Shown here in pieces: positions 11,164 through 12,614 of a stretch of 64,000 bases of DNA. Where the stretch lies: positions 2,418,001-2,482,000 of the forward strand of contig NZ_CP030048.1 in the NCBI RefSeq assembly GCF_015291665.1, given 5' to 3'. Within the stretch, counting starts at the first letter, position 1. Every line of letters begins with the position of its first letter. Origin of the DNA: Bradyrhizobium sp. CCBAU 53338. GTDB lineage: Bacteria > Pseudomonadota > Alphaproteobacteria > Rhizobiales > Xanthobacteraceae. The translations under genes were made by a program, and so were the position numbers. A model generated the notes under the pieces. It made no database searches and had not been told where the DNA came from. It saw nothing but the letters and a program-made list of their open reading frames with translations.

Positions 11164-11286
11164 GTGGTGACCCCTCTCGGTGCTGTGAGGCGCGGGGTGT
11201 ACACCGACGTCGGGAGCTTGAAGCAAGTCCCTTGCGCACCACATATCAAGCTGGGAGGAAGGGCGCGGGCTCGCCAGATCGTTGGT

Positions 11287-11316
11287 TTGACACATCGGGC
11301 AAAACACTGGCACAAT
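11287..11316 (+). promoter_or_regulatory. Sigma70-like promoter of short RNA unit, copy 1
   Basis: A consensus -35 TTGACA (11287-11292) is followed by an 18-base spacer and a -10 CACAAT (11311-11316). The same -35, spacer length and spacer sequence (CRTCGGGCAAAACACYGG) recur in the copies at 11842 and 12002. Confidence 0.75.
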
Positions 11317-11322
11317 GGCATC

Positions 11323-11372
11323 ATCGAAATTTTGGTTCAGCCCGCGCGGAACAATCCGCCGCGGGCATTTTT
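11323..11372 (+). ncRNA. Short terminator-ended RNA, copy 1 of 3
   Basis: From the expected start (about 11322) the transcript would begin in the conserved ATCATCGAAA. It would pass TTTGGTTCAG and end in a GC-rich hairpin (GCCCGCGCGGA paired with TCCGCCGCGGGC, one bulge, loop ACAA) with TTTTT at 11368-11372. Length is about 50 nt. The unit ends 29 bases before the VOC gene start, so it could be a free small RNA or an attenuating leader of that gene. The exact 5' end is inferred from the promoter. Confidence 0.6.
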
Positions 11373-11401
11373 AATGCCGCCGTCCTGATCGGAGTGCACG
11401 C

Positions 11402-11797
11402 ATGAGCCCGTCCGGTTCCCTCGTCGCGATCCTGCCCTGCAATGACCTCGATGCGTCGGAGCGGTTCTACAACCGCTTGGGCTTTTCGCGCCCGGACTGC
11501 GATCGGCCAGCTGCCGGAGAGGCGGACACCTATCGCATATTGTCGAACCGGCAGGGCGGATATCTGCATCTGACCGATGCAGTCGAGGGATGGTTGAGCC
11601 CGGGCCGAAACCCTCTCGGGCTTTATCTCTATCTCGAGGATGTCGACGCTGCCGCGCGCGAATTTCAGCAATCAGCGGAAGACAAGCCGTGGGGGATGTA
11701 CGAGTTTGCGCTGTCCGATCCGGATGAGACGTTGGTGCGGATTGGATGGCCGAGCCGGCTGCGCGGTGGAGGCAATCGTTCGTCTGCAACTGGCTGA
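11402..11797 (+). CDS. VOC-superfamily (glyoxalase/bleomycin-resistance-like) protein
   Basis: This 131-residue single-domain protein has a typical VOC start (SLVAILPCNDLDASERFYNR, then LGF). The paired beta-alpha-beta half follows (LGLYLYLEDVDAAAREFQQS), ending in WGMYEFALSDPDETLVRIGW. The terminal E-F-A-L-x-D-P-D-x-x-L-V-x-I pattern carries the usual metal-side Glu. Members include resistance proteins that bind bleomycin-like drugs, and dioxygenases; the ligand here is unknown. GGAG lies before the ATG. Upstream is short RNA copy 1. Confidence 0.75.
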   Translation: MSPSGSLVAILPCNDLDASERFYNRLGFSRPDCDRPAAGEADTYRILSNRQGGYLHLTDAVEGWLSPGRNPLGLYLYLEDVDAAAREFQQSAEDKPWGMYEFALSDPDETLVRIGWPSRLRGGGNRSSATG

Positions 11798-11841
11798 GGC
11801 CGGCCTCTATACGGTCCGCCGAGCCCACCAAGCTTGCTCGT

Positions 11842-11871
11842 TTGACACGTCGGGCAAAACACTGGCATTAT
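11842..11871 (+). promoter_or_regulatory. Sigma70-like promoter of short RNA unit, copy 2
   Basis: TTGACA (11842-11847), an 18-base spacer and CATTAT (11866-11871). The spacer differs from copy 1 at one position. Confidence 0.75.
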
Positions 11872-11877
11872 CGCATC

Positions 11878-11928
11878 ATCGAAAAAGTTTGGCTCAGCCC
11901 GCCGGAGTGATCCGTGGCGGGTTTTTTT
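11878..11928 (+). ncRNA. Short terminator-ended RNA, copy 2 of 3
   Basis: The transcript would start near ATCATCGAAAAAG and continue GTTTGGCTCAG. It ends in the hairpin CCCGCCGGA-GTGA-TCC-GT-GGCGGG (11898-11921, two-base bulge) and seven T residues. Length is about 51 nt. Like copy 1 it is followed by AATGCCG. It lies 80 bases after the VOC gene stop, but its own promoter makes it more than that gene's terminator. Confidence 0.6.
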
Positions 11929-12001
11929 AATGCCGTCTCGCTTGTCGTGAGATCGCAGCGTCGCCATCGCGACGGGCCGCGATCCAATTGCAACTCGAGG
12001 T

Positions 12002-12031
12002 TTGACACGTCGGGCAAAACACCGGCATAAT
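12002..12031 (+). promoter_or_regulatory. Sigma70-like promoter of short RNA unit, copy 3
   Basis: TTGACA (12002-12007), an 18-base spacer and CATAAT (12026-12031), the closest of the three to consensus. Confidence 0.78.
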
Positions 12032-12037
12032 GGCATC

Positions 12038-12088
12038 ATCGAAACGAGTTTGTCAGGCCCGCGCGGGAGCATCCGCTGCGGGCTTTTT
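12038..12088 (+). ncRNA. Short terminator-ended RNA, copy 3 of 3
   Basis: The transcript would start at ATCATCGAAACGAG and continue TTTGTCAG. It ends in a hairpin (GCCCGC-GCGG paired with CCGC-T-GCGGGC, 12057-12083) and TTTTT (12084-12088). Length is about 51 nt. No gene lies immediately upstream, so this copy in particular looks like a free-standing RNA gene. Confidence 0.62.
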
Positions 12089-12223
12089 CGTTTCGATCTC
12101 AGGAATCGGACGGCGTCCGGCGCATCGCGGCCTCGCCCTCGTTGAAAGGCCTTCGTGGAACGCCGATCAGCGCGCCGCCGTCCGAACCACTTTGTTGGCC
12201 GTGCACGCGCGAACGTGCCGGCC

Positions 12224-12251
12224 GGCGGCGCGAGCCTTTGCTTGCGCCGCC
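12224..12251. other. Strong 12-bp hairpin in intergenic DNA
   Basis: GGCGGCGCGAGC (12224-12235) pairs with GCTTGCGCCGCC (12240-12251) across a CTTT loop, with a single G-T wobble. No T run follows. It sits about 85 bases before the small phage-like genes. The stretch 12089-12336 holds no other feature I can support. Confidence 0.6.
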
Positions 12252-12336
12252 GCGGTCCCCGGAGGGGATAAGTTCGCGCCGAAACGATCGCGCTTCGTCT
12301 CGCGATCTGCCGCACTGTTATTTTCTTGGAGAAGCG

Positions 12337-12408
12337 ATGACGCTCTATCTGATATCGCTCGCGCTGGCGGGCCTGATCGCAATTGTTGTGTGGGAGAGTT
12401 TCGCTTGA
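12337..12408 (+). CDS. 23-residue hydrophobic peptide
   Basis: The ORF encodes MTLYLISLALAGLIAIVVWE plus SFA, a single membrane helix. TTGGAGAAGCG precedes the ATG. It overlaps the next gene by four bases (TTGA). Its position ahead of two further small membrane genes resembles a phage lysis or holin-type cassette. The function is inferred only. Confidence 0.45.
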   Translation: MTLYLISLALAGLIAIVVWESFA

Positions 12409-12614
12409 GTGACGGTCTATGGCATGAGCCAGACAAGCTGATCGGCTACTGCGTGACGATCTATTTCGCGAAGCTCCTTGTCTGGGACAAGGTTCTGGGC
12501 CTCGGATCGACGCATCCTCTGACGGGGTTTGCGGCAATCACCGCAAATCTCGTCGTTTCGTTCTACTTCGCCAAGCGCGGCTTTGAGAATGTTGCAAGGA
12601 TCATCAAGCGGTGA
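12405..12614 (+). CDS. Small phage-like membrane protein (holin-like)
   Basis: This 69-residue product starts at TTG with GGGAGAG nine bases upstream. Two hydrophobic segments flank a short loop (LIGYCVTIYFAKLLVWDKVL and LTGFAAITANLVVSFYFAKR). This two-helix size and placement before a DUF6127-like gene suggests a phage holin or phage-derived membrane protein. The frame is open upstream to 12030 but has no protein character there. Confidence 0.5.
   Translation: MSDGLWHEPDKLIGYCVTIYFAKLLVWDKVLGLGSTHPLTGFAAITANLVVSFYFAKRGFENVARIIKR

Follow-up and report, generated by a model that had tools for sequence, protein, structure and literature searches.

A genus-wide family of short promoter-to-terminator units, probably RNA genes, in Bradyrhizobium

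Three times within a 64,000-nucleotide stretch of Bradyrhizobium DNA (the window), a promoter-like sequence is followed by a GC hairpin and a T run, which raises the question of what such a repeated arrangement does. It might encode small RNAs, form the leader of neighboring genes, or act as a DNA site. The comparisons presented here indicate that the units are real and conserved and are probably transcribed as short RNAs, and from these comparisons we infer their function. The main uncertainty is how much of their role is played at the DNA level, and such a role is a serious rival because the promoter DNA is the most conserved part of the units.

The first-pass annotation of this DNA had placed the units on the plus strand at 11287-11372, 11842-11928 and 12002-12088, and the shared block was found again at all three places. 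Their common layout consists of TTGACA, an 18-nt spacer, a -10-like box, ATCATCGAAA, a GC hairpin and a T run, and the promoter boxes, spacer length and loops given earlier agree with those in Table 1. The linker motif TTTGGYTCAG, described for the three copies alike, is present in copies 1 and 2, the corresponding sequence of copy 3 being TTTGTCAGG. A 43-nt block from TTGACA to CATCATCGAAA starts at 11287, 11842 and 12002 on the plus strand; these are its three matches in the window, against a chance expectation of 0 (mean 0.00 and largest count 0 in 100 window shuffles). Promoter scanning of 11200-12500 yielded four sites, where shuffled sequence gave a mean of 0.4 (sd 0.7). Three of them are copies 1-3, which agree with the consensus at 10, 10 and 11 of 12 positions. 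The fourth, a minus-strand match at 12056-12027 (9/12), overlaps copy 3, and the -10 region is close to a palindrome.

Pairwise identity among the three copies is 27, 27 and 28 of 30 positions in the promoter, 11, 12 and 11 of 12 from the -10 to ATCGAA, 9/13, 5/14 and 8/14 in the linker, and 20, 23 and 19 of 27 in the hairpin. The transcript of copy 1 would span about 11322-11372, and those of copies 2 and 3 would begin near 11878 and 12038. Fold z-scores are -3.21, -1.44 and -2.29 for copies 1, 2 and 3, respectively, and 22 of 200 shuffles of copy 2 fold at least equally well. A generic terminator scan found a single site, copy 2, which is below the shuffle mean of 1.5; the proposed explanation for the missed copies 1 and 3 is that the scan rules allow no bulge. 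Considered as small-RNA genes, the window units have, by their sequence, a sigma-70-type promoter, and also a GC hairpin followed by a T run, recognized by the generic scan in copy 2 only, with compensatory change in the 92-unit alignment described below.

Table 1. Positions of the units and of neighboring features in the window
Feature	Position	Strand	Basis
Copy 1 promoter: TTGACA, 18-nt spacer, CACAAT	11287..11316	+	block match, promoter scan
Copy 1 GC hairpin (loop ACAA, bulged C) and T run	11340..11372	+	fold
VOC/glyoxalase-fold gene between copies 1 and 2	11402..11797	+	PF00903, 21.1 bits, cutoff 20.6
Copy 2 promoter: TTGACA, 18-nt spacer, CATTAT	11842..11871	+	block match, promoter scan
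Copy 2 GC hairpin (loop GTGA) and T run	11897..11928	+	fold, terminator scan
Copy 3 promoter: TTGACA, 18-nt spacer, CATAAT	12002..12031	+	block match, promoter scan
Outer stem, 5' arm AUCGAAACGA, enclosing the terminator hairpin	12038..12047	+	partner 12088-12097
Copy 3 GC hairpin (loop GAGCAT) and T run	12057..12088	+	fold
Outer stem, 3' arm UCGUUUCGAU, at and past the end of the T run	12088..12097	+	predicted folds
Conserved, probably structured leader with several GC hairpins	12105..12336	+	alignment, predicted pairs
23-codon hydrophobic ORF (MTLYLISLALAGLIAIVVWESFA), stop overlapping the next start	12337..12408	+	leader alignment
Next ORF, 69 aa, variable between genomes	12405..12614	+	no Pfam match at E<=0.01

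Conservation of the units was followed in 20 cluster regions from genomes with strong matches, a selected sample, which together with the window gave 100 matches under a 9-mismatch limit (a looser limit adds two, in L107); the mismatch limits used for collection themselves select for the -35/spacer core, TTGACnCGTCGGGCAAAnCA. Eight matches were left out before alignment, seven because reading revealed no clear hairpin and T run (L090:6351, L093:1098, L093:4032, L098:4620, L102:4897, L104:8560 and L108:4312) and one, L089:770, that has both and a divergent core. The 92 kept constitute alignment A1, so that a hairpin with a T run occurs in about 92 of the 100 matches collected. Changes in the stems had been said to preserve pairing, and they do: the 11-pair bulged hairpin is paired in 95.7% of 977 cells, with compensatory changes. 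Both sides have changed in 31 cells at six of the pairs, 17 of them at the outermost pair, and most stem columns are near-invariant. The covariation score of the hairpin was reached by none of 500 shuffles, a result to be read with the caveat that related sequences can beat every shuffle without structure, and sliding the partners by 1-3 columns lowers pairing to 37-51%. These pairing counts, like the covariance model built from A1, rest on genomes with a CAAAACA core. The hairpin is polar as well, the 8 nt past it holding a mean of 6.0 T and the 8 nt ahead of it a mean of 1.2 A, with at least four T in 91 of 92 units and at least four A in 6 of 92. For whole units RNAalifold also proposed a helix of five pairs within the promoter, which was left out of the tested structure because it lies upstream of the predicted start.

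The promoter spacer hardly varies in A1, whereas the transcribed linker is variable and less conserved, a pattern that points to DNA as much as to RNA. Conservation ends at the T run in one of three orthologous groups. In this group, of eight units, identity in 15-column blocks stays at 0.83-1.00 between the promoter and the T run and is at most 0.53 thereafter; in the group of seven and the copy-3 group (22), conservation extends into the downstream DNA, where an FAD gene and the leader lie, respectively. For a singleton unit found in four genomes the upstream DNA is shared (86-91% identical) and the downstream DNA does not align.

A multicopy family with promoter and terminator features is thus real, as had been proposed, and its description as a three-copy family falls short: there are four full units in the genome of the window (G000), the fourth at G000:C1:5087123, and four to eight in each of six genomes scored more fully (4, 6, 6, 8, 5 and 5 places at >=57 bits). 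The four units of G000 score at least 90.5 bits with the covariance model and the next match 49.4, a gap that is unclean in G054 (60.6, 51.9) and G217 (55.7, 49.2). With copy 3 as a DNA query, G000 has at least 41 places at E<=1, all on contig C1, a count that may be a lower bound since 40 of 72 first-look candidates were scored. The core pattern with up to three mismatches occurs at 30 places in G000, and the reversed pattern at none. Across the genus, 75 of 98 genomes, the window's own included, match the copy 3 query at E<=1e-11, and the model finds matches in 253 of 265 genomes at E<=1e-6, with 15 candidates scored per genome under strict filters and at a threshold that lets in some promoter-only copies; the best match is 1e-12 or better in 234 of the 265 (counted by eye). 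Among 248 genomes of the taxonomic family, 18 match at E<=1e-5, 17 of them from the same genus, and the one match from another genus scores 46.5 bits, the level of promoter-only copies. Phage and plasmid collections searched with copy 3 and part of its leader gave no match.

The suggestion that the units belong to a catalogued small-RNA family of Bradyrhizobium was not borne out, for they match none of BjsR1-10 by position and no Rfam family at gathering score. Rfam 15 covariance models gave 0 matches at that score in the window, and permissive settings (E<=5) brought up nothing in 11200-12200 beyond Mcr7, at 11.1 bits versus 380. The positional comparison used G114, which we take to be USDA 110. 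The BjrC small RNAs, also of Bradyrhizobium, were reportedly predicted from conservation with Rhodopseudomonas, and it is by this description that the present family is set apart from them, its single match in another genus being weak. Two BjrC sRNAs are named in the available text of PMC4842269. The full units of G114 lie at about 6.7190-6.7222 Mb and 3.4162 Mb, which correspond to no BjsR coordinate in Table 1 of PMC5082802. All are on the minus strand; transcripts at the first place would start near 6,722,241, 6,721,687, 6,719,911, 6,719,781 and 6,718,997, and the unit at the second spans 3,416,223-3,416,317. At the published BjsR coordinates G114 has hairpins with T runs, and the copies of BjsR5, 6 and 7 look alike, which supports the identification of the genome; BjsR5a/b, 6a/b/c, 7a/b, 8 and 10a were compared by reading the sites and BjsR1-4 and 9 by coordinate only. 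BjsR5, BjsR6 and BjsR7 resemble the window units in genus, in being multicopy (two to four imperfect copies; PMC5082802) and in having a hairpin with a T run, and differ from them in sequence and coordinates.

The closest likeness in organization is to LhrC1-5 of Listeria, sibling sRNA genes arranged as a cluster plus a separate locus, each with its own promoter dependent on one regulator (available text of PMC4132741). LhrC RNAs are, however, 111-114 nt long, almost identical between copies, and have a tested target and regulator (PMC4132741), whereas the window units would make RNAs of ~50 nt and have variable linkers. The dispersed copies invite comparison with Br-REP1 and Br-REP2, intergenic repeats of Bradyrhizobium in 3' regions, but the published consensus, by eye, differs from the core and from the second motif described below, AACAACCCCATGCACAGTAG (available text of PMC5082802). 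The GTAG/CGTC-tagged REPs, likewise dispersed intergenic repeats reported in Bradyrhizobium, are similar in that GTAG closes the second motif in genomes of the CAAAACA type; the core, however, is not a tagged palindrome of the form described for them in the available text of PMC3733652 and is set apart by that description, and unlike them the second motif of G043 is without GTAG in 19 of 20 sites. In a text search of a library of papers the core sequence was found only in work on Neisseria pili and the second motif nowhere.

The core also occurs without the rest of the unit. G000 has 37 promoter-only places, from which a non-redundant set of 30 copies was examined; the unit's hairpin is absent from them by eye and the model score is at most 49.4 bits, so that in G000 they outnumber the full units 30 (examined) to 4. 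All 30 have in common TTGACnCGTCGGGCAAAACA..GGCATGATGnCATCATsG, and 15 lie between convergent genes according to approximate gene calls; antisense promoters acting on 3' ends were among the roles considered for them. TTGACA is the -35 in 75 of 92 units versus 8 of 30 promoter-only copies. The -10 is CAGAAT, CATAAT or CACAAT in 72 of 92 units, and CATGAT is the commonest (13/30) in promoter-only copies, with little difference in matches to TATAAT (4.04 versus 3.73).

The second motif, AACAACCCCATGCACAGTAG or a near variant, lies within 150 nt upstream of all 30 promoter-only copies and of the singleton unit, and was not found within 150 nt upstream of the three window units. With up to two mismatches it occurs at 79 sites in G000, all on C1 and none on contig 2 (about 0.98 Mb). 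G114 has 70 sites and none between 1.672 and 2.497 Mb, presumably the position of the symbiosis island. With putative origins set by hand at 0.17 Mb (G000) and 0.72 Mb (G114), the motif points toward the origin at 37 of 44 and 32 of 33 sites in the origin-proximal half and at 17 of 35 and 21 of 37 sites in the far half; the G000 origin is backed by a GC-skew change, whereas in G114 the skew is unclear and the strand switch guided the choice, which makes that count partly circular. When the origin is left free, the best polarity is 55 of 79 (G000) and 53 of 70 (G114), values that 0.8% and 0.1% of 1000 strand permutations attain; the grid used for the permutations was coarser than that for the data, which biases the comparison slightly toward polarity. 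Even spacing of the motif was considered and rejected: gap variation is 0.82 versus 0.98 for random placement in G000, a weak effect with 4% of simulations as low, and 0.90 in G114, with 24% as low. The distance from second motif to core, variable in G000, is 48-52 nt in 19 of 20 G043 sites (L256-L275) and 62 in one.

Core sequences vary largely by genome. Among 60 genus genomes CAAAACA was found in 25, CAAATCA in 37, both in four (12/1, 36/1, 1/35 and 29/1 copies) and neither in two; exceptions are the units of G003 (CAACTCA), G007 (CAAATCG) and G015 (CGCCGGGCAAATCA), and the cluster of G004, whose units mix CAAATCA and CAACTCA. Copy-3-type units occur with either core, and the second motif also differs between core types. 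Across the sites of a genome the core thus changes largely, if not strictly, in concert. Among genomes of the CAAAACA type, 14 of the 20 sites examined in G054 have over 500 nt of upstream flank in common with a site in G000; between types, 1 of 20 G043 sites matched a reference on both flanks (54 references; flanks diverged by more than 20% could escape). Concerted change could reflect a trans-acting factor, gene conversion or lineage-specific re-amplification. That copy-3-type units stay in place favors either of the first two over re-amplification, and variants that mostly follow the genome, with copy-3-type units found under either variant, fit a trans-acting factor.

Units are co-directional within each of the 21 regions. 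In most regions they flank an FAD monooxygenase gene and reach a CoA-transferase/acyl-CoA dehydrogenase pair, with variable small genes between (gene calls are from a codon-usage script and approximate); several units face an opposite-strand gene or precede unrelated DNA. The start codon of the VOC gene lies 29 nt past the T run of copy 1, which had been suggested as an attenuator of that gene and may be one. Similar terminase-like proteins are found downstream of the copy-3 leader in L092, L094, L097, L101, L104 and L105; that of L104, the only one of the six scanned, is a phage terminase large subunit (PF04466), and a prophage remnant therefore probably fills part of the place.

Copy 3 seems to stand at the start of a longer leader. 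Because the 3' arm of the outer stem lies at and past the end of the T run, this stem can form in read-through RNA only. It is present in the predicted fold of 21 of 21 copy-3 orthologues, imperfectly in several (fragments picked to contain both arms, no shuffle control), and one of its pairs varies, by eye, between A-U, G-U and G-C, which suggests that some RNA may read through copy 3. In an alignment of 22 copy-3-like loci the leader of ~230 nt is kept throughout in 21, L089:770 retaining by eye about its first 150 nt. Of 31 genus genomes, 23 have DNA that matches the leader, 18 of them with one match and five with two. For structure 27 leaders were gathered, two without a recognizable start, and the 25 aligned have 53 predicted pairs, 97.5% canonical and seven with double changes (no shuffle control); CAAATCA-core genomes contribute only three of the 25 (L176 twice, L182), although more leaders were seen in such genomes. 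An ORF of 23-27 codons is present in 21 of the 25 under a loose match rule. Rfam has no match to the leader at gathering score and none near it at permissive thresholds, and the 69-aa and 99-aa ORFs after copy 3 have no Pfam match at E<=0.01.

The best explanation, which taken whole has about an even chance of being right, is that these are co-regulated short transcription units making ~50-nt, intrinsically terminated sRNAs, with copy 3 serving also as an attenuator. A sigma-70-type housekeeping RNA polymerase would read each unit from TTGACA-N18-CANAAT, starting near ATCATCGAAA and ending ~50 nt on at the intrinsic terminator. The copies may be switched jointly if the core doubles as the binding site of one DNA-binding regulator. 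Each unit would yield a small RNA whose 5' part, ~20 nt long, is weakly structured and whose tail is the terminator, and such sibling RNAs, with partly different linkers, would most likely base-pair with targets; since the linkers differ among paralogues, a shared target is not obvious. The copy 3 unit would in addition provide the promoter and attenuator for the conserved leader, the 23-codon ORF and the downstream genes, its read-through RNA being able to re-pair the 5' end with sequence past the T run. The comparison supports how the units are built, that this layout is conserved, that the terminator is polar and that changes in the stem compensate each other; that the units are transcribed, have a regulator and act in trans on targets is what we infer.

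Other readings give different weight to the same observations. The core is conserved above the RNA, stands at 30 examined sites without the unit's hairpin, comes in variants mostly exclusive by genome and lies on C1 at all 41 copy-3-like places of G000, all of which would suit a site first and an RNA second: the core would be the operator of a chromosomal DNA-binding protein, and the ~50-nt transcripts by-products or a means to load or stop RNA polymerase. Compensatory hairpin changes and a one-sided T run are nevertheless not expected for a pure DNA site, and the exclusivity is not absolute, as the mixed G004 cluster attests; this reading, while deserving serious attention, is unlikely. Slightly less likely still is the proposal that each unit is the promoter and terminator of the gene that follows. 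It would account for the place of copy 3 ahead of a conserved leader and ORF, for an outer stem that needs read-through RNA and for the short distance from copy 1 to the VOC start codon, but it sits poorly with the units that face an opposite-strand gene or precede unrelated DNA and with the orthologous group in which downstream sequence is not conserved.

It is doubtful that the dispersed copies are remnants of an old mobile repeat, REP-like or a single-strand-transposing miniature element, of which the units would be expressed relatives. The second motif common to the 30 dispersed copies, the location of half of these between convergent genes, the orientation toward the putative origin in the origin-proximal half and positions that mostly differ between core types would all agree with such a history, but the upstream flanks shared by G054 and G000 argue against recent movement, copy-3-type units keep a conserved place, and the Br-REP1/2 consensus differs. 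Equally doubtful, and offered as speculation, is that TTGACnCGTCGGGCAAAnCA and AACAACCCCATGCACAGTAG together mark addresses on the chromosome, a system specific to the genus and read by a DNA-binding protein that has yet to be described, with the RNA units as its transcribed outputs. Its traits would be the main-chromosome array, the origin-pointing orientation in the proximal half, the absence from contig 2 of G000 and from the gap in USDA 110, and the largely concerted change of sequence.

On the preferred reading of the units as short RNA genes, the family matters because few sRNAs have been characterized in Bradyrhizobium species, which are major nitrogen fixers in soil and nodules. A genus-wide multicopy family running from promoter to terminator could be a missing regulatory layer, and one that is easy to test; a core tied to chromosome-wide, largely concerted sites would make the identity of its regulator directly searchable.
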